A DNA stretch of 64,000 bases from a virus: IMG/VR virus record IMGVR_UViG_3300031576_000007, positions 47,990 through 111,989 of that record, one strand, 5' to 3'. The notes beneath the pieces are model-generated. The model ran no database searches. It was not told the origin of the DNA and worked only from the letters and a program-made list of their open reading frames with translations. Every line of letters starts with the position of its first letter. The first letter of the stretch is position 1. Positions 27,202 to 39,767 of this stretch are shown here, one piece after another. The translations under genes and the position numbers were made by a program.

Positions 27202-30200
27202 TTACGTCACTCCCCCACGAAAATCAAGTTCAATGTCATTTTCTACCATTTCTGGAATTTCACTATTCCTTAGATTTACGATATCATCAACAAAACCAGA
27301 GGTTCTAAATTCAAAATGATCCACAATTGTCCCATCAGATGAGATTCCTAAATCGTTAACACTATCCCCTGGTCCAGGTATTACTGGAGTTGGCACACTA
27401 TGTCCTTGTCCTATACCACCTGACATACCAGCAAAAGTTATTCCTGAAATATTAACAGTGTCTATTATCGACTGATTTCCTATTGATCCTATATTATCAT
27501 TTTGTAGAAATACTACTTCATCAGATCCGAACAGCCCAGTACCATCTGAAGCTGATATTGCTAATAGTGGTGCTCCATTTATAGCGCCTATTATTGCTGA
27601 TTTTATTGCAGCAGCATTATCTCCGTTAGTATAAGGAATTGCGATATTACCAAATGCAACCCCCCCAACTTTATCAAATTCAAAAGTAACAGCTGGATTT
27701 GTACCATCATTTAATGTAAATTGTTTTCCATCAGCTATATCACTACCTGTAATTGATGTATTTATAGCTATAGCCCCAATTGCTTGAAATCCTAACCCGC
27801 CAGCTCTATTAGCTAACCCAACTACGAAACTTACTTCATTATTATCACTATAGTATCTAGGAGCTATAGATGCTGGCTTTCCACTAGATGTTGGGCCTAA
27901 TGGAAGACCTACTGCTGGGGCTGGAGTTTGTGTAGCATCATGTAATATTACAACAGTTTTGGATAAGTTGTTTACTGAGATTATTTCAAATGTTCTTAAA
28001 TTAGAATCTATCAGCGTATATCTACTAGAAGGACCACCTGTTATAGAACTCAAATCAGGGTTCCCTGCGCAATGCACAGCTCCAAAACCAATACTTGGGG
28101 TATTTGATATAAATTGGTCAAGTGTAAGAGGTATTCCAAAATTTCCTATATTATCCTGTGGATCTGATAGTTGGAATTCATCCCCTATTGTCCCTACCAA
28201 GTTAAAAGCTGAATTAACTCTAAAAATTGAGTTGTGAGTATTGTACTCAATCCCAGCAAATATAAGACTATGAAAGATAAGATTCTGACCTATTAAACTT
28301 TTTACAATTTTGTATTCTCCACTTGCAACATCAGAAACAATAGTGTTATTAACAGCAAATGCTGACAACAATATAGAGTGTGAGTCATTGTCATCAATAG
28401 ACCACACGTTACCGGCGGCATCTACTAATAGGTGCGTATCTCGCTTAAGAAAAGCTGCTCCATTAACTAATGCATTAGGATAGCCGTTTGATACAACAAA
28501 TGTATCTGAGTCTACGATAGACACAATTCTCGCCGTATTAGCTCCTTGTATTATTCTATCTCCAATTTTAGGGATAAAAGTGGGGACTGTATGATCAAAG
28601 GTATTCCCTGACAGATTACTTAGAGTAATCGAGGAGGACCCCCCTACAAATTCATCTATTAAGAAAGTTTTACTAATATCAAATACAATATTAGAACTAC
28701 CATCAGTATTTACTCCCGTGGTAGTACTTTCAACTACAGAAAAGTTTATTGAATCATCTGTCAGACTTCCTTCACTCAAATTACTAACTCTTCCTGAGAT
28801 CTTTTTGAATACAGTGAAAGAATTAAAGTTTGGTGAATCCGCATTTTCATTTGGTCCTATTAGCCATTCAGCTGAGTTACTATTAGGGAATAGCTCTATT
28901 TCAGAAAACAGGTAATTAGCTCCAATAGCTGCACTTTGTTCAACTCTAGGATCATAATGTAATTTTGTAATTTCAAATCTTTCAATGCCCTCAACTGTTC
29001 CTACAACATTGTATAGGTCTATAAGTCGTATTACCTGGGCGAACTTAGTTCCTGATTCATCAACGTCTCCAGAACTAAAATTAAAGAAGTTAAGAAGTGA
29101 TGTAGTTATATTAGATTCAACTAAAGATCTGGATGCTCCTGATGATAGGAATATAGTAGCTTTAAAGAATATATCCATCCCAAATGCATCTTTAATTTTG
29201 AATGTAGTAGTTACGGGCTTTCGTTCATCAATAAAATCAGACACAGCATTGAAAAGAGGGAGATTATCTGTTATTTTAGTTATAGAATTCCCAGCAGGAA
29301 CCACAAAAATATCTATATCTATACCAGCATCACTTAAGTTCTGAGCAGCTGAAGCTTTTGAAACATTATTAAAATTAGTTAAAATAATATCTGCATAATC
29401 CTGAACTGTTACTGCTCTTTCTAAAGTTCTAAGAGATGCGGGTACTAGCTCTCTTAATTGGGTGATGGAGGGCTCATCTGCACCACCACTAAATGCTGAT
29501 TCATTTGTAACAGCATTTATAAAAGTTGATTGGTCTAATAAAGTAGTTAAGGTATTAGCAGGTATGTTACCAGCGGAACCACCTCCAGTTCTATAATTGG
29601 TGACAATAGAATCGTTAGGTGAAAGTTGTTTCCCGAACACGCCGTCACCAAATCTGAGAATTGCTCTGCCTTCAGAATCAATAAGGACACGAAAGTGTTT
29701 ATCTGTGGGTAAACTTCTTATAAATGTATCAACTAATTCATATGTATCGCCGTTAACTGTAACGCCGGGGGATATTAATGACGAGATAGGATTAGTAGTA
29801 TCTATCACCAATCCTGTTACCCCTAGAGTTATTTCTTCATTTTGTACTCCTCTAGCTATGAAACTCTCTTGTCTTTGTGCGCCCTGAATTACTGGAAGTA
29901 TGACTTCAAGAGTTGTTGACCCCGGAGCTGGAGAACTACTAGATGTAAAAAACTCTTGCCCATTTTCTGAGGATACCCTGAATCCTATTGGTACTGTACC
30001 TGGTGTGCTCAACATAAATGTAGCAACCTCTGACGAGGAAGATGCGGTTGAGACTACAAATCCAAATTGTTTTGCTATATCTAGAATATTCTTTCTGATG
30101 GTAGCTGTTTCAATATTACTTTGAGTTGCTTGAACATCAAGGTAATAAAAGATGAGATCGCCAACGTATGCAACTAATTCTAACCACGTTCTGCTAAAAT

Positions 30201-30336
30201 CATCAGCATTAAAATCCGTCCATTGTCTATTCGCAACCGTATCAGGCCCAAAATTTACTGTAGCAAAAGATATAAGAGCATCAACGATGGAATCGAAATC
30301 GCGCGAAACGTAGTCTATACTTCTGTTATTGGCCAC
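27202..30336 (-). CDS. Baseplate J-like wedge protein
   Basis: A 1044-aa protein. The first 500 residues match the Baseplate_J/gp6 layout: DYVSRDFDSIVDALISF, FSRTWLELVAYVGDLIFYYLD, GFRVSSENGQEFFT, RFGDGVFGKQL and ERAVTVQDYADIILTNF. It would form the wedge that links the hub to the fibres. The last 500 residues are additional beta domains unlike the core family, so it is about twice the usual length. It follows gp25 as in most myoviruses. Confidence 0.82.
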   Translation of the reverse strand: MANNRSIDYVSRDFDSIVDALISFATVNFGPDTVANRQWTDFNADDFSRTWLELVAYVGDLIFYYLDVQATQSNIETATIRKNILDIAKQFGFVVSTASSSSEVATFMLSTPGTVPIGFRVSSENGQEFFTSSSSPAPGSTTLEVILPVIQGAQRQESFIARGVQNEEITLGVTGLVIDTTNPISSLISPGVTVNGDTYELVDTFIRSLPTDKHFRVLIDSEGRAILRFGDGVFGKQLSPNDSIVTNYRTGGGSAGNIPANTLTTLLDQSTFINAVTNESAFSGGADEPSITQLRELVPASLRTLERAVTVQDYADIILTNFNNVSKASAAQNLSDAGIDIDIFVVPAGNSITKITDNLPLFNAVSDFIDERKPVTTTFKIKDAFGMDIFFKATIFLSSGASRSLVESNITTSLLNFFNFSSGDVDESGTKFAQVIRLIDLYNVVGTVEGIERFEITKLHYDPRVEQSAAIGANYLFSEIELFPNSNSAEWLIGPNENADSPNFNSFTVFKKISGRVSNLSEGSLTDDSINFSVVESTTTGVNTDGSSNIVFDISKTFLIDEFVGGSSSITLSNLSGNTFDHTVPTFIPKIGDRIIQGANTARIVSIVDSDTFVVSNGYPNALVNGAAFLKRDTHLLVDAAGNVWSIDDNDSHSILLSAFAVNNTIVSDVASGEYKIVKSLIGQNLIFHSLIFAGIEYNTHNSIFRVNSAFNLVGTIGDEFQLSDPQDNIGNFGIPLTLDQFISNTPSIGFGAVHCAGNPDLSSITGGPSSRYTLIDSNLRTFEIISVNNLSKTVVILHDATQTPAPAVGLPLGPTSSGKPASIAPRYYSDNNEVSFVVGLANRAGGLGFQAIGAIAINTSITGSDIADGKQFTLNDGTNPAVTFEFDKVGGVAFGNIAIPYTNGDNAAAIKSAIIGAINGAPLLAISASDGTGLFGSDEVVFLQNDNIGSIGNQSIIDTVNISGITFAGMSGGIGQGHSVPTPVIPGPGDSVNDLGISSDGTIVDHFEFRTSGFVDDIVNLRNSEIPEMVENDIELDFRGGVT

Positions 30337-30344
30337 AATTCTCC

Positions 30345-30731
30345 TTATCTAGTGCTTATCTGTGAAGAAGGTTTAAAAGGAAATACTAGATTGGCTTCCA
30401 CATTAGCTTCTTTTATTAAAAATCTTATATTAAAAAGAATCATTCCCTCTGATCGTCGTACTACTGGGGCAACTTCTATTAACGTAACACGAGGCTCAAA
30501 TCTTCGTATTGAAGTAGCTATATCAGATGATCCTCTTTCGGCAACTACATCTAAATTTTCCCATATCTGAGTCCCAAGACCACTTCCAAAGGTTGGCCTC
30601 ATAACTCTTTCTCCAAAGTTAGTAAGTAGTAAAAGTTGAATACATTCAATAACTTTATCCACCCCATCTTCGGGTAAAAACTTATTTTTTATCGGAAATT
30701 TTAGTCCTTTTCCTAAGAATGGTGTAGCCAT
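30345..30731 (-). CDS. gp25-like baseplate wedge protein
   Basis: A 128-aa protein of the gp25/GPW family (PF04965): TNFGERVMRPTFGSGLGTQIWEN and RRFEPRVTLIEVAPV are diagnostic. It joins sheath and baseplate at the initiator of sheath contraction. Overlaps the spike gene start by 1 base. Confidence 0.9.
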   Translation of the reverse strand: MATPFLGKGLKFPIKNKFLPEDGVDKVIECIQLLLLTNFGERVMRPTFGSGLGTQIWENLDVVAERGSSDIATSIRRFEPRVTLIEVAPVVRRSEGMILFNIRFLIKEANVEANLVFPFKPSSQISTR

Positions 30732-31738
30732 TATTCTATTTTTCCTTTTATTGACAATTGAGGAGCACCAGCAAATCCCGCTGGAGATGGTGGTGATGAA
30801 CCAGACCCAGAAGGAGACCCAGTTTGTGTGGTTGGGTCGCTCCCTGGACTATAAGAATGTGTATGGGAATTAAAATCTCCAATAAGAGTATTAACTGCTG
30901 ATATTAAAGCATTTAATGTTAACACTATCTGAGTATTGTTATAAGTTACCCATTGGTTGCCTAATATAATAGGCTCAATTGCATTTTTACCTATTTTAAT
31001 AGTAGGTGATTCTGTTTCAATTTTATTTCCAGAAAAATCTAAATCTATATATTTACTGTTTCCAGAATCACGAAGCCTAATTTTGTTAGATGACTTTAGT
31101 ACTTCTAGTGTTCTATTGTCAGAATCTTTTACAATAATTTGTTGTCCAGAAGCGTCTAAATCATCTATAAGTTGTAATGATTGCCCACCGAATGTGATTA
31201 ATTCTATTCTATTCTTTTGAGAGCCTTCTGTTAGCTCTTCTAACATTCTTAAAACATGACCACCAGAAGTAGAGAATCTTAGTCCTTTGCTCTCTTTTGT
31301 GTGAGTGATTGTACCATCGGACGAGGCGATAGCTATTCCATCGTCAAGTTCAATCAAATGCCCATTATTAATAATTGAGGGGGAACCATCCGCACTCAAA
31401 TCACCTGGAGATGCCCAACCTCTATTGGTTGGCACACTGCGTCTAAATTCCTCTCGTGTATCAGGGTTATTTGGATCACCATCATTTATTGTAGCCCATG
31501 CAATTAGGAAATCAGGGTCTCCACCATCTTGAGTTATATATACAACGGAACCAACATCAGGAGGACTAAAGAAACCATCATCAGGATAAACGTAATGAAT
31601 AAAAGAACTTTCACCAAAAATAGGACTTTTTATCCTTATCCTACCTTTATTGGAAGGATCTTTATTATCTATAACTATGGCTTTGGAGGGTCCTAAGTAA
31701 ACACTTTCCCCCTTCCAGTCTCTTACCCGCACGCTCAT
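30731..31738 (-). CDS. Baseplate spike (gpV/gp5-like) with OB fold and HxH tip
   Basis: A 335-aa protein. N-terminal OB-fold (NKGRIRIKSPIFGESSFIHYVYPDDG and DVGSVVYITQDGGDPDFLIAW) is the gp5/gpV membrane-puncturing hub domain. A beta-helix stalk follows (repeats around residues 150-245), then FNSHTHSYSPG, a His-x-His motif like that binding iron at the tip of P2 gpV, and a Pro/Ser/Gly-rich tail. It pierces the host outer envelope on contraction. Confidence 0.85.
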   Translation of the reverse strand: MSVRVRDWKGESVYLGPSKAIVIDNKDPSNKGRIRIKSPIFGESSFIHYVYPDDGFFSPPDVGSVVYITQDGGDPDFLIAWATINDGDPNNPDTREEFRRSVPTNRGWASPGDLSADGSPSIINNGHLIELDDGIAIASSDGTITHTKESKGLRFSTSGGHVLRMLEELTEGSQKNRIELITFGGQSLQLIDDLDASGQQIIVKDSDNRTLEVLKSSNKIRLRDSGNSKYIDLDFSGNKIETESPTIKIGKNAIEPIILGNQWVTYNNTQIVLTLNALISAVNTLIGDFNSHTHSYSPGSDPTTQTGSPSGSGSSPPSPAGFAGAPQLSIKGKIE

Positions 31739-34473: not shown

Positions 34474-36468
34474 TTAGAAGATTTGATCAGCTGAATTCAT
34501 TTTACCAGATCTCATTTTTGCATCTTTAATAGCTCGCTCAATCTTACCTAGAAGGAACACAACCTCTTTACCAGTTAGAGTTTGATCTCTGGTAATCTGT
34601 CTTATGGAGTCTTCATCGACCTTACCACCAACGGATTTAAGGCTGGATACTTGATTCATGAGTTCTTGTCTTCGGTTCTTAGCCTCAGAGTCACCTATAT
34701 CTAAGGCATTAAGTTGATTTGCTATTTGACCACCACTCATCATTTTATCTGCTTGAAAACCATTAGAAGTAGGAGCAACCATATCAGCAAGATACTCAGA
34801 AGGCGCTTTCCCCAGAATCTCCTTCCATGAACTATCTATATAAGAACCTAATTTGTAACCTCCAAAAGCAGCCCCGGCTAATAAACCACCTTTGGCTAGG
34901 GCTCCAAATCCTAATACTTTTCCTAAAACTCCTGATAACTTTCCTATTCCTCCGGTAACATCCATTACATAAAGGGGCTTAGAAAAATCATGTCCTCTTC
35001 GACCAAAAGCTCCTTCTCCACCAAACGCCCCCCCGATTCCTGGTATCTTTTGAAGAAGTCCTCCTATAACAGGTATTCTACCTATTACAGATCCTATAGT
35101 TTTTAGACCGGCACCTGCCCCCAAAACAACTGCTAAAACACCAGCAATTTTTCCTATACCTTTTACTAGTGATTCCGTTGTTTCCGAAAACTGCCGAGTT
35201 TTACTATCCCATAATCCAATCTTAGATAAAACCTTTGTAATCCAGTCTACCGTATTTTTTACACCTTCAGTAAAGCCATTTATTGCTACTCTTGCTAAAA
35301 CAAATGCTTTAGCTATAAATAGTATTCTATTTTGTGTAGCCTCTGGCATCTGGGAAAGTCTATCTGTAACGTCTTTAGAAAAAGTTGATATACCGTCTTT
35401 ATATGTAGAAAATGCCTGGAAATAAAACTTTAGTTCAGCCCCTACATCTGCAAGAAATTCTAACCAAGATCTATTCTCTCCTTTTGCAGCCTTCAATCCT
35501 ATTGTAAAAAGAGTTAAAACTCCGGTTATAGCCCCAAAGGTTACTCCTAATGTAGAAGCTATAAGAGCTAATAAAGACAAACCTCCTACGAGAGCAACAG
35601 AGCCCGCCAACGTGCTACCACCTACTTGTAAAAAGTCAACCAGCCCAAGTCTTAATCTTCCAAATTTATCTTTTGAATCATCGAGGGCATCATTTAATCT
35701 ATCGAAAGCTTTAAAATTAAGTAAGGAGATTTTAGCTAAAAGAGGATTAATGGCACGAGAAATAAAAGCCCCGCTTACTTTACGAAGATCATCAAAGCCT
35801 GCTTTAGTCATCATGAAAAGTGTAAGAGTATCATTGGTATTAACAGCAAACTGTCCTAAAGCCTTAGTTAACTCTTCTATACCGATTCGTCTGAAATTAG
35901 CTGCTGATAATTTTGCTGAGTTTAGGCCTTTCGTCAATCTATTTATAATCACGTTCATGTTTTTGAACTGATTATTTGTGTTCAGGGCAACAAAGAAGTT
36001 TTGTAGACCGCTAACTGATAAGTCGTTAAAAGCCTTTGACATCTTCTTTGCAGCTTCTGAGGTCGTGGTACCCATTATTTTGGCAGCACCTACTGATAAT
36101 GTGAATATCTTCTGAGTTTCAAATTTTTTCATTCCCCTAGCGTGATTTTGCAGAGAAATCTGCATCATTGAGGTTGCATCCATTGTAAATTTAGATGCGT
36201 TGCGTAGGGTTTTTAGGTAGGAACTCCCAAAAGTTTGATTAAACTGAGTTCTTAAGAAATCAAATTCTGCTCCAACTCCGGCTAAATCAAAAGCTCGTCT
36301 AAAACCTTGTGAAAAAGTGGCGTACACAGCACTAGCGGTAAATAAGCGTCTATTGAACTTCACCAATTCATCTCTGAAGTCATGAAGATCTCTTCGTGCC
36401 TCTCTTATGGGAGCAGAAGCCTTGTTACGAACACTAATTAAAATATTAATGTTATTTGGACTTGGCAC
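34474..36468 (-). CDS. Tape measure protein
   Basis: A 664-aa protein starting at GTG 36468 (AGAGG upstream). Helical N-terminus (APIREARRDLHDFRDELVKF), a hydrophobic centre at about residues 285-335 and a Gly-rich part at 430-540 are typical of tape measures, which set tail length and may help DNA cross the membrane. If the usual 1.5 angstrom per residue holds, the tail would be roughly 100 nm. Its start lies inside the frameshifted chaperone extension. Confidence 0.82.
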   Translation of the reverse strand: MPSPNNINILISVRNKASAPIREARRDLHDFRDELVKFNRRLFTASAVYATFSQGFRRAFDLAGVGAEFDFLRTQFNQTFGSSYLKTLRNASKFTMDATSMMQISLQNHARGMKKFETQKIFTLSVGAAKIMGTTTSEAAKKMSKAFNDLSVSGLQNFFVALNTNNQFKNMNVIINRLTKGLNSAKLSAANFRRIGIEELTKALGQFAVNTNDTLTLFMMTKAGFDDLRKVSGAFISRAINPLLAKISLLNFKAFDRLNDALDDSKDKFGRLRLGLVDFLQVGGSTLAGSVALVGGLSLLALIASTLGVTFGAITGVLTLFTIGLKAAKGENRSWLEFLADVGAELKFYFQAFSTYKDGISTFSKDVTDRLSQMPEATQNRILFIAKAFVLARVAINGFTEGVKNTVDWITKVLSKIGLWDSKTRQFSETTESLVKGIGKIAGVLAVVLGAGAGLKTIGSVIGRIPVIGGLLQKIPGIGGAFGGEGAFGRRGHDFSKPLYVMDVTGGIGKLSGVLGKVLGFGALAKGGLLAGAAFGGYKLGSYIDSSWKEILGKAPSEYLADMVAPTSNGFQADKMMSGGQIANQLNALDIGDSEAKNRRQELMNQVSSLKSVGGKVDEDSIRQITRDQTLTGKEVVFLLGKIERAIKDAKMRSGKMNSADQIF

Positions 36469-36660
36469 GTCTTTCGACCTCTTTCATAGCCTGTTTATGG
36501 TCTTCTACTAGCTGCTTACGAAAACTCCACCCTAAGTAATCTACCTGATCTGGACCCCATCTGAAAGCTTGCCCAAGGTAGGCATAATCATTCAAAAGAT
36601 CAGACTTATGATCAATATACTCAGTAGGAATTATGTTAAAGGGGTCCGAGACTGGACGAA
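36452..36660 (-). CDS. Frameshift extension of the tail assembly chaperone
   Basis: In the -1 frame relative to the chaperone, 68 codons are open from CGT 36658-36656 to a TAA at 36454-36452. The peptide (RPVSDPFNIIP to MKEVERRAKSK) has no start codon of its own. It contains AFRWGPDQVDYLGWSF, a hydrophobic/aromatic helix followed by a charged helix, and ends by overlapping the tape measure start by 17 bases, as gpGT-type extensions do. Confidence 0.75.
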
Positions 36661-37371
36661 AAAACTTGGGTCCATAACTGGAAGAGGAGTATCAAACTCC
36701 TTACTACATTCGTCACAATCATTTGTGAGCATAGTATCAACTGATCCCCTAAGCTCTGAGAAAGCATTCTCTATAGCTGAAAGATCTGATACAGGAAGAT
36801 CTAGGAGATCTTCCTCTTTTACCTGCTCATTGTCCCCTAATCTTTTTAAAGATAAGTATAAAGTACCTGTATAAAGTTTTCTAGGATTCTCCTTTAGAGC
36901 TTTATACAAACTATATAAATCTTTAAGATACAGGAGCTTTATCTCAGCCTCTATACCACTTTTTTGTAACTGTATAACTTTTGTCCTTACGGACTTATTA
37001 CTCAGCTTAGTAATCTCAATCTTATCCAAGTCAACTTTTTTAGTTTGTTGTTTAGAGCAATGAGGGCATCGTACAGGAATAGCATAAGCTGGCCCATACG
37101 TAGCTTCTCTAATTTTTAAAAGTATGCATTCGACATCTTCAGATGCTAACAGATTAATAGCCTCTGATTGAGGTAATATTAGTGGTTTTCCCTCTTTTGT
37201 CTGAAAATTAGAAGTTAGCTCTTCAAGAAGTCTGGGGACATGCCCTAGGCTATCTGTTACTAATTCCATATCAATTAGATAATTTTGCTGTCTTCCTGTA
37301 AGTTCTTTAACTTGGACATGATCATAAATATCATTGTCCTTTAAAATACCGCATGGTAATTCAACAAGCAT
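36631..37371 (-). CDS. Tail assembly chaperone (T4 gp26/gp51-like), zero-frame product
   Basis: A 246-aa protein. ATG 37371 has GGAGG at good spacing and does not overlap the tube gene; a longer frame from 37509 lacks this. Two Cys pairs (CPHCSKQ and CDECSKE) suggest a zinc knuckle. The family binds the tape measure during tail building. Near the end, at 36664-36658, lies T_TTT_TTC, and a -1 slip would give a 306-aa protein. Identity with T4 gp26-like proteins is from general pattern. Confidence 0.7.
   Translation of the reverse strand: MLVELPCGILKDNDIYDHVQVKELTGRQQNYLIDMELVTDSLGHVPRLLEELTSNFQTKEGKPLILPQSEAINLLASEDVECILLKIREATYGPAYAIPVRCPHCSKQQTKKVDLDKIEITKLSNKSVRTKVIQLQKSGIEAEIKLLYLKDLYSLYKALKENPRKLYTGTLYLSLKRLGDNEQVKEEDLLDLPVSDLSAIENAFSELRGSVDTMLTNDCDECSKEFDTPLPVMDPSFFVQSRTPLT
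36658..36664 (-). promoter_or_regulatory. -1 programmed frameshift slippery heptamer
   Basis: Read on the - strand it is T TTT TTC in the zero frame, matching X XXY YYZ. It falls at codons 237-238 of the chaperone, 8 codons before its stop, and the -1 frame then stays open for 68 codons. Confidence 0.8.
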
Positions 37372-37402: not shown

Positions 37403-37957
37403 TTAGAAGATACCTCTAGTAAATCTTCTAAAGAAATCCCCAACATCTTCTGGGCTATTCTCTCTTGACTCTTCAAATCCTTCATATTCGAAAGTAAGCG
37501 TTTCAACACTTATTTCTGATTCATCAAGAGCGCTAAAATCCGAGGAGGGTTTATAATGAGATGGAGCACAATTAAACAGTACGTACCGCTTAACAACTGT
37601 CGAATCTCTGTCCAAATGTTCAATAACTATATTATTACGATATTGTGGAGCTAAAGCTGAACCAGGCTCCTGATTTGTAACCGCGTATAAATCACTCATC
37701 CATCTAGCAAAATCATCAGATCCCTGCCTAGCTATAACCCCGCGATTAAGAGTTATTGGAGCGAAAGTAGCACTATCATGGATCTTACGAGGAGCCATGT
37801 GTCTACCACCTTCTATATATGTCTTATAAGCAACAGTAACATCAGGAGTTGTACAAGATGTGAACCCAGCCCTGGCCCAAACTGCGCCAGCTGGGGACAT
37901 AACATACACTTTCCAACGAAACTTGTCTAATGGATCAAAACTTCCACTTCTTGGCAT
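37403..37957 (-). CDS. Tail tube protein paralogue, third copy
   Basis: A 184-aa gp19-family tube protein (FDPLDKFRWKVYVMSP, PAGAVWARAGFTSCTTPDV, LNRGVI, then VLFNCAPSHYKPSSDFSALDESEISVETLTFEYEGFEE by segments). It diverges most from the other two copies and may cap or initiate the tube. Starts at the base where the second copy ends. Confidence 0.72.
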   Translation of the reverse strand: MPRSGSFDPLDKFRWKVYVMSPAGAVWARAGFTSCTTPDVTVAYKTYIEGGRHMAPRKIHDSATFAPITLNRGVIARQGSDDFARWMSDLYAVTNQEPGSALAPQYRNNIVIEHLDRDSTVVKRYVLFNCAPSHYKPSSDFSALDESEISVETLTFEYEGFEESRENSPEDVGDFFRRFTRGIF

Positions 37958-38559
37958 TATAAGCCTCCAAGTAGACTATTAAAAGTCCCGCTAATTAAAG
38001 CTTCAAGAGTCAGTTCTTCAAATGATTCATATTTCAACTCAATTTCTTCTATTAGTTTCGAAGAATCTTCAGAGGCTGACATATCATCTCCTGGTTTATA
38101 AGAAGACACCCATGCGTCACGTAATAACCATCCTTTTTTAGGACTTCCAGATCTATCATATGCTACTATCAAAATATCTCTTCTAAAATTTAAACTATCA
38201 GATGGTGGGGCCTCATTAGGATCTCCACGCAATCTTTGAATAGCCGTAGCTATAACTTGATTAGGATCATGAACTTGGTTCGCCCATCTAAAAAAATCTG
38301 AGTTTTCTGTTACTCCTCTCTTAAGAGTAACTGCATCATACTTGGTTATGCCTGGTATTAGTATTGGATGAGCGGAGTCTATGTTTTCTCTATATTCAAT
38401 AGCCCCTGTACTCTGTCTAGGTATAGAAACTTCTGAGAACCCGCCTCTTAAAAATCCTATAAAATTTGTAGCAAAAGATACAGGATCTAATGCTATATTT
38501 AAAATATATACATTAAATCTAAACTTTTCAATTGCGTCAACAGATGCGGTTCTAGCCAT
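37957..38559 (-). CDS. Tail tube protein paralogue, second copy
   Basis: A 200-aa gp19-family protein sharing MART-x-SVDAIEKFRF, the segment RGGFSEVSIP and the end YKPGDDMSASEDS with the copy at 39216. It has an extra 14-residue loop after the first strand. Probably a minor tube or tube-terminator subunit. Overlaps the ferritin-like gene by 1 base. Confidence 0.75.
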   Translation of the reverse strand: MARTASVDAIEKFRFNVYILNIALDPVSFATNFIGFLRGGFSEVSIPRQSTGAIEYRENIDSAHPILIPGITKYDAVTLKRGVTENSDFFRWANQVHDPNQVIATAIQRLRGDPNEAPPSDSLNFRRDILIVAYDRSGSPKKGWLLRDAWVSSYKPGDDMSASEDSSKLIEEIELKYESFEELTLEALISGTFNSLLGGL

Positions 38560-38990
38560 TACCCCAACTTTTTTCTTTGCAGGATCTTATATTGTCTTGA
38601 ATCTGACTTTTCTGCTAAATCTCCTATCATATTCTTTAAACCAATGGTGGCAACGCTATCCAATTCCTGTAAAGAAGTATAAAACTCCTTTTCTAGGATT
38701 AAAGCACCCGCCAACATGGAGATTGTAGATATTTTCTCTATTTTAAACCTTTGAAGTTCTTCCGCTACTAGCATATTAATTTTTTGAGTCTCAAATGCTT
38801 CATTCCCTAATGTAGCGATTAGATATTCTGAAAGACGATCATAATGATCTGACATCTCCTCATAAAACCCGCCGAATAGAGAGTGGTCTCCAACGAATGT
38901 TTCCCCATACGTTAATAAGTGGCAGTAATGATAGAATAAGTGCAAAACCCGGCTATAAATTATTGCTTTTAGTAAAGGTATTTTGCTCAT
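38559..38990 (-). CDS. Ferritin/Dps-like four-helix protein (DUF5856-like)
   Basis: A 143-aa helical protein. HLFYHYCHLLTYGETFVGDH followed by GGFYEEMSDHYDRLSEYLIATLG has the H-x-x-H/ D-H / E-x-x-D-x-x-S-E spacing of Dps/ferritin-like helices that bind iron at a dinuclear site. Some myoviruses carry such a gene among tail genes with unknown role. Whether it binds metal or is a tail component cannot be told from sequence. Confidence 0.6.
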   Translation of the reverse strand: MSKIPLLKAIIYSRVLHLFYHYCHLLTYGETFVGDHSLFGGFYEEMSDHYDRLSEYLIATLGNEAFETQKINMLVAEELQRFKIEKISTISMLAGALILEKEFYTSLQELDSVATIGLKNMIGDLAEKSDSRQYKILQRKKLG

Positions 38991-39215: not shown

Positions 39216-39767
39216 TTATTCCTGATTTTCACCAGCTAATGGTGCGGTAATCTCTACTCCAGAGATTTCCTCAAATGTCTCATATGCTAATGTGACTTGC
39301 TCTATTGATTTCTCACTGTCTTCATTTGCATTGAGGTCTGACCCAGGCTGGAATGCAGCAACCCAAGCGTTTCTGAGAACCCACTGTTTAGCAGGTACCC
39401 CGCTTCTGCGAAATAACGTAATAGTCACTTCTTTCCGATAATCATCAGTGTTTCCAAGAGGAACCTGATTCTGCCCTTGTCCTGCTTGAGGAAGGCCATT
39501 AGGGAGTTTCTCAGGATCAAATACTAACCTTAACCACTCGTAGAGATCTTGATTAGTTGTTGACCCGCGAGATAGAACTACATCTTCTGTTCTAGCCAAC
39601 CCTGGAAAGAGTTGGACGTTATCTGGTGCATTTCCTTCCCTGTATTCACCTTTTGTAACTGTATACTTAGGGACTGAAACTTCACTGAACCCCGCTCTAC
39701 CAAGCCCCGAAAAGGAGACAGTAAAACGAAATTTCTCAATAGCGTCTACACTACCTGTTCTTGCCAT
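39216..39767 (-). CDS. Major tail tube protein (gp19-like)
   Basis: A 183-aa tube protein: MARTGSVDAIEKFRFTVSF, RAGFSEVSVPKYTVTKGEYR, VVLSRGSTTNQDLYEWL and WVLRNAWVAAFQPGSDLNA. Next to the sheath, with its own ribosome site AAGGAGG and followed by the hairpin, so most likely the main tube subunit. Two paralogues lie downstream. Confidence 0.88.
   Translation of the reverse strand: MARTGSVDAIEKFRFTVSFSGLGRAGFSEVSVPKYTVTKGEYREGNAPDNVQLFPGLARTEDVVLSRGSTTNQDLYEWLRLVFDPEKLPNGLPQAGQGQNQVPLGNTDDYRKEVTITLFRRSGVPAKQWVLRNAWVAAFQPGSDLNANEDSEKSIEQVTLAYETFEEISGVEITAPLAGENQE

Follow-up and report, generated by a model that had tools for sequence, protein, structure and literature searches.

The window, a stretch of 64,000 nucleotides from a viral record of 111,989 bases, carries on its minus strand a tail module that includes genes for the sheath, tail tube, tail assembly chaperone, probable tape measure protein and baseplate (Table 1). 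The sheath gene matches solved phage tail sheaths, and its presence indicates that the tail is contractile, as an earlier note on this DNA had assumed. With 865 amino acids the sheath protein is large. It has no Pfam match at E 0.01, and its resemblance to known sheaths is confined to residues about 640-800; much of the remainder may be inserted or divergent. Three tail tube paralogues of the gp19 family lie between the sheath and the chaperone, and a triplicated tail tube has been described for the Vandenendeviridae (PMC12846349). A small ORF among the tube genes (38559-38990) shows weak Ferritin/Dps-like matches, one to PF00210 that is below the cut-off (E 4e-4) and one to phrog_3636, 'DNA binding protein' (E 2e-10), which would be an unusual location for such a gene. 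The tape measure candidate lacks a Pfam match and was assigned by its position; homologues occupy the same place in three related contigs (L008, L014 and L013).

Table 1. Features of the tail module (window positions) and groups of related loci discussed in the text
Feature	Position or loci	Strand	Basis or remark
Baseplate J-like wedge protein	27202..30336	minus	PF04865 Baseplate_J E 1e-15; phrog_6 E 2.2e-31
Baseplate wedge, gp25-like	30345..30731	minus	PF04965 GPW_gp25 E 6.4e-13
Probable baseplate spike (gpV-like OB domain)	30731..31738	minus	PF04717 Phage_base_V E 3.7e-5
Probable tape measure protein, 664 aa, GTG start	34474..36468	minus	called by location, downstream of the chaperone
-1 frame extension, 68 codons plus stop; predicted C-terminal domain of the 306-aa TAC-NC	36452..36657	minus	translation
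Zero-frame stop TAA	36631..36633	minus	8 codons past the heptamer
Slippery heptamer T_TTT_TTC, zero frame	36658..36664	minus	sequence
Tail assembly chaperone, short form (TAC-N), 246 aa, T4 gp26/gp51 family	36631..37371	minus	ORF, translation, Pfam PF12322
Tail tube protein (gp19 family), just upstream of the chaperone gene	37403..37957	minus	PF06841 E 1.5e-19
Tail tube paralogue (gp19 family)	37957..38559	minus	PF06841 E 2e-25
Tail tube paralogue (gp19 family)	39216..39767	minus	PF06841 E 1.7e-29
Tail sheath protein, 865 aa	39779..42376	minus	phmmer to 9ezm E 1.7e-10, 8bky E 3.2e-9
Most other PF12322 relatives, +1 extension	L074-L158, L002, L003, L005, L054, L055, L060		
Doubtful public annotation	L058 3094-3198; L055 3195-3431; L004 4246-4428 and 4466-7396		

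The chaperone gene starts with an ATG at 37371, immediately preceded by GGAGG, and its zero frame ends with the codons AGT TTT TTC GTC CAG TCT CGG ACC CCT TTA ACA TAA. The TTT and TTC of the heptamer are zero-frame codons, which is the phase required by a -1 slip. Positions 36691 to 36452 are open in the -1 frame, whose extension shares base 36658 with the heptamer, and a shift at this site would yield a fusion with the predicted junction peptide ...DPSFFRPV.... (...DPSFFRPVSDPFNIIPTEYIDHK). At its far end the extension overlaps the GTG (36468) of the probable tape measure gene by 17 nt. All figures given for this arrangement in the earlier note, which had proposed a programmed -1 frameshift in the chaperone, were reproduced: 8 codons from heptamer to zero-frame stop, 68 codons in the -1 frame, proteins of 246 and 306 amino acids, and a -1 frame that reaches into the tape measure start, with the proviso that the latter gene is called by position. 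The note's description of the chaperone as containing cysteines also holds; two CxxC pairs (C102/C105 and C219/C222) are present in nearly all relatives. An X_XXY_YYZ heptamer that is in frame shortly before the short form terminates, and an overlapping -1 frame without its own start beside the tape measure gene, characterize G/GT-type -1 frameshifts, and both are found here. In the 14,040 codons of the window's long ORFs, this is the sole in-frame occurrence of T_TTT_TTC. In contrast, 6 of the 30 long ORFs, the chaperone gene included, have a -1 frame that stays open for at least 58 codons past the stop, perhaps simply because next genes overlap. Openness alone is thus little proof, and the weight rests on conservation.

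Relatives were collected from IMG/VR with the sheath, the tube and an alignment of chaperones as queries, which gave 23 locus representatives including the window (L017 and L018 are identical contigs to L008 and L014). When IMG/VR was searched directly with only the chaperone protein, no close relatives were returned, and a search of bacterial genomes with the chaperone alignment pattern returned no relative. The chaperones of the 22 further representatives are 23-81% identical, and loss of the heptamer or of the open -1 frame, which the earlier note had named as evidence against its proposal, was sought among them and not seen: T_TTT_TTC is exact in 21 and reads T_TTT_TTG in one, always in phase, and the -1 frame is open in each of the 23 loci (that of L034 is cut by the contig end). 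The heptamer-to-stop distance of 8 codons recurs in L017, L018, L019 and L021. The codon 5' of the Phe-Phe pair is AGT, GGT, GCT, TCT, GAT or ACT; the encoded residue varies (S, G, A, D, T), and the third base is T in all 23 loci. In loci of 60-66% GC only 11-26% of Phe codons are TTT, yet TTT is retained at the slippery site. From codon usage, the chance of the pattern is 0.02-0.29 per locus, values that cannot simply be multiplied since the loci are related, though several deep branches are involved.

This conservation bears on two other explanations of the broken frame. One base could be missing from the homopolymer through a sequencing or assembly error, so that a single long gene appears interrupted, and a homopolymer is a position where such an error could be suspected. 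However, isolate genomes and about 20 independent contigs share the identical break, at one and the same codon, and the zero-frame stop stands at a fixed distance within clades. Conservation thus rules out an annotation or sequencing error at the chaperone, whose probability we regard as negligible. In the second explanation, RNA polymerase would add a U in the T6 run so that some mRNAs encode the 306 amino acids directly. Transcriptional slippage of this kind would suit a homopolymer run, and one extra U would give the same fusion, indistinguishable by its product. The run comprises merely six T, though, and never more than six in any of the 23 loci, whereas bacterial polymerase slippage usually requires about eight or more. 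Moreover, the first T of the run is a third codon position in all 23 loci, a phase required by ribosomal slippage only. Slippage of the polymerase is therefore very unlikely.

The extension itself is conserved as a protein. Its -1 peptide follows the pattern FF[RL]P...DLL.DY...W....W..RK, with identities in the main clade of 90, 76, 66 and 63%, then 37-44%. Past the zero-frame stop, the window and L017 differ by 21 synonymous and 7 non-synonymous changes (pS 0.56, pN 0.051, dN/dS about 0.05), which fall on the three codon positions as 3, 4 and 21; in most other pairs synonymous sites are near saturation, which makes dN/dS there rough. Where the two frames overlap, the window and L019 differ by 1 non-synonymous and 7 synonymous changes in the -1 frame, and by 6 and 1 in the zero frame. 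These substitution patterns show that purifying selection acts on the extension as read in the -1 frame, and that of the two frames in the short overlap it is the -1 frame that is conserved. A further rival reading is a small independent gene in the -1 frame, made by re-initiation after the zero-frame stop. The region has indeed often been annotated as a separate hypothetical protein (BRock gp135, SP15_046, Mel-JY01 WWT39326.1), and the stop TAA overlaps an ATA/ATT of the -1 frame. However, no ATG, GTG or TTG precedes or would allow a separate gene spanning the conserved part of the extension, in which the sole Met is near the end, and the slippery heptamer would be needless. That -1 conservation starts at the heptamer, upstream of the zero-frame stop and without a start codon, argues for a fusion over a second gene, which we consider very unlikely.

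The short and the long form of the chaperone of this contractile-tailed phage are therefore best explained as products of one gene through -1 programmed ribosomal frameshifting, a reading to which we assign a probability of roughly 0.93 and which bears out the proposal of the earlier note by the in-frame heptamer, its conservation and the selected -1 peptide. What we infer is the ribosomal slippage itself, its efficiency and the chaperone function. The majority of ribosomes would stop after 246 codons and release TAC-N. A fraction would move one base backwards on U_UUU_UUC, with tRNA-Phe re-pairing from UUU/UUC to UUU/UUU, and would then translate 68 more codons to complete the 306-aa TAC-NC. 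By analogy with gpG/gpGT of lambda and gp26/gp51 of T4, the tape measure protein might be covered by many short and few long copies, the latter recruiting tail tube subunits through their extra C-terminal domain, and both forms would depart as the tube grows.

RNA structures downstream of the heptamer differ between clades. In the window's clade RNAalifold predicted no conserved downstream structure (-1.9 kcal/mol, no compensatory pairs), which counts against the frameshift reading, and the single-sequence fold of the window downstream of the heptamer has a z of 0.12. A hairpin directly after the heptamer (GTCC-AGTCTC-GGAC) was rejected because it is disrupted in L019 and L021. For the sister clade (L022-L039), a candidate stimulatory stem was found 7 nt past the heptamer, pairing CCAAGGGAUC with GAUCUCUUGG (columns 20-29 with 60-69 of alignment A6); it is absent from the window's clade. 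In this candidate, 90.9% of cells are paired, one compensatory pair occurs in three sequences, and the stem beats all slid versions; the shuffle control was only modest, and both arms are coding. In a GC-rich clade (L045, L046 and L050), another candidate, UCGAGUCC-AGAA-GGACUCGA, lies 8 nt past the heptamer. A stimulatory RNA element is not always present in G/GT-type -1 frameshifts.

The affiliation of the chaperone is clear from profile searches. The 246-aa protein matches Pfam PF12322 (T4_baseplate; E 7.1e-10, 39.4 bits, curated cut-off 24.5), as do 30 of 31 aligned members of the chaperone family, and phrog_150, 'baseplate hub' (E 3.9e-9); gp26 and gp51 of T4 match PF12322 with E values of 9e-64 and 4e-52, respectively. 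An AlphaFold2 model of the chaperone (pLDDT 90) found its best Foldseek matches in BFVD among SP-15 and T4-like baseplate hub proteins, with E values as low as 1.6e-16 and with TM-scores of 0.7-0.8 for the best of them. Against the PDB the model's top-ranking fold is 2ob9, the tail assembly chaperone of HK97 (probability about 0.7, E 0.33), a hint only and alone not significant. Searches of Pfam and the PDB with the window protein and the family gave no sequence match to lambda or HK97 chaperones, and the family profile detected nothing relevant among the sequences of solved structures. By these sequence comparisons the window chaperone belongs to the T4 gp26/gp51 family by descent and is probably an analogue rather than a homologue of lambda gpG.

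The likeness to gpG/gpGT pointed out in the earlier note is thus one of layout and probable function. The two systems share the short protein, the heptamer near its end, the startless -1 frame and the tape measure gene next to it (PMC5009743); they differ in protein family by sequence, and the window has the heptamer T_TTT_TTC and only the weak fold match to HK97 2ob9. Among contractile-tailed phages a chaperone made by frameshifting is no exception, as frameshifting of this kind is known in P2 and Mu (PMC5009743) and has been argued for the Vandenendeviridae (PMC12846349). The latter and the Andersonviridae resemble the window phage in their contractile tails, a poly-T slippery site (conserved GTTTTT) and the -1 frame (PMC12846349), and the Vandenendeviridae further share the three tail tube paralogues. 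Unlike the window's PF12322 protein, however, the PAK_P1 protein at the place of the chaperone belongs to Pfam Phage_TAC_15 (E 1.8e-23). A frameshifted chaperone gene is standard in long-tailed phages, and the window adds an ordinary, well-supported example.

T4 is the closest known system by family, with PF12322 common to gp26, gp51 and the window protein, but has two separate genes where the window phage has one gene and a slippery site. According to the title of a 2022 paper by Vladimirov, Gautam and Davidson, cited in PMC12846349, T4 encodes its two chaperone forms as separate genes. A second PF12322 gene that could encode a long form in the manner of T4 was not found in the 111,989-base record, which may be incomplete; the record holds a single PF12322 gene even at E <= 10. 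gp26 can be aligned with the short form up to and including the final Phe-Phe, three residues before its own end (...KEFFELL), and the tail of gp51 past the Pfam domain matches the cyanophage-type -1 extension with 26.6 bits (best of 200 shuffles, 5.4). Because of these two matches, T4 looks, at the sequence level, like a case of the same two products made from two genes. Direct homology between the gp51 tail and the extension of the window's clade is not detectable, the two being too distant.

Within the wider PF12322 family, T_TTT_TTC with a -1 extension occurs at the equivalent position in the jumbo phage isolates Atu_ph07 and PA5oct, and Kyanoviridae-type (cyanophage-type) relatives have AGT/GAT TTT TTT (T_TTT_TTT) directly before the stop, followed by a -1 extension. 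In phage C48C1 this region contains a small gene that bears the annotation 'baseplate hub assembly catalyst'. Bacillus phage SP-15, Listeria phage LIS04 and Streptomyces phages of the BRock type share with the window PF12322, the location between tube and tape measure, and the Phe codon or codons at the junction, but their extension is in the +1 frame, whereas that of the window is in the -1 frame. The +1 frame was found in 83 of 116 loci examined, frames having been assigned by a single open frame in 86 loci and by profile score in the other 30. The commonest +1 junctions are TTT TTT TGG (59), TTT TTT TAC (5), TTC TTT TGG (4) and TTT CTT TGG (3), with TTT before CGN, CAN or CCC among the remainder; the codon before TGG in 66 such sites is TTT in 63, CTT in 3 and TTC in none, a bias consistent with the P-site tRNA slipping by +1, as is known for CUU_UGA in prfB. 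About 80 family members, SP-15 and the Streptomyces BRock-type phages among them, thus have a +1 extension at the site where the window has its -1 shift, with UUU_UGG, CUU_UGG, UUU_UAC or UUU_CGN. A -2 slip would reach the same frame, but re-pairing would be impossible at the TTC TTT TGG and TTT CTT TGG sites; therefore, +1 slippage is preferred for this branch.

In a quick tree of 67 proteins, whose sequences were cut before the junction and which contains several long branches, the shift direction changes at least three times, two of the changes being forced by well-supported branches; where the BRock, SP-15 and LR756511 (L059) lineages belong in this tree is uncertain. It is reasonably probable that decoding within PF12322 has switched among -1 slippage (U_UUU_UUC), +1 slippage (UUU_UGG, CUU_UGG, UUU_CGN) and two genes (T4), always at the same codons and with an alignable junction. 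If true, T4 would be the exception, a duplicated, frameshift-free descendant. Shifts of -1, -2 and +1 in the chaperones of different phages have already been recorded (PMC5009743). A split in shift direction within the gp26/gp51 family was not found in the open literature, a search whose reach did not extend to key subscription papers. As a computed inference, this family-level picture would be more interesting than the window locus: members of the T4 gp26/gp51 family appear to be made by frameshifting in many relatives, in directions that differ between branches, and how a programmed frameshift changes direction or yields to gene duplication becomes testable with natural sequences.

In annotations, PF12322-family extensions frequently appear as small genes in their own right or are missing. 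Several public entries for this region look off, with pieces of the extension listed separately, and in BRock the gene at the tape measure position is named 'endolysin'.
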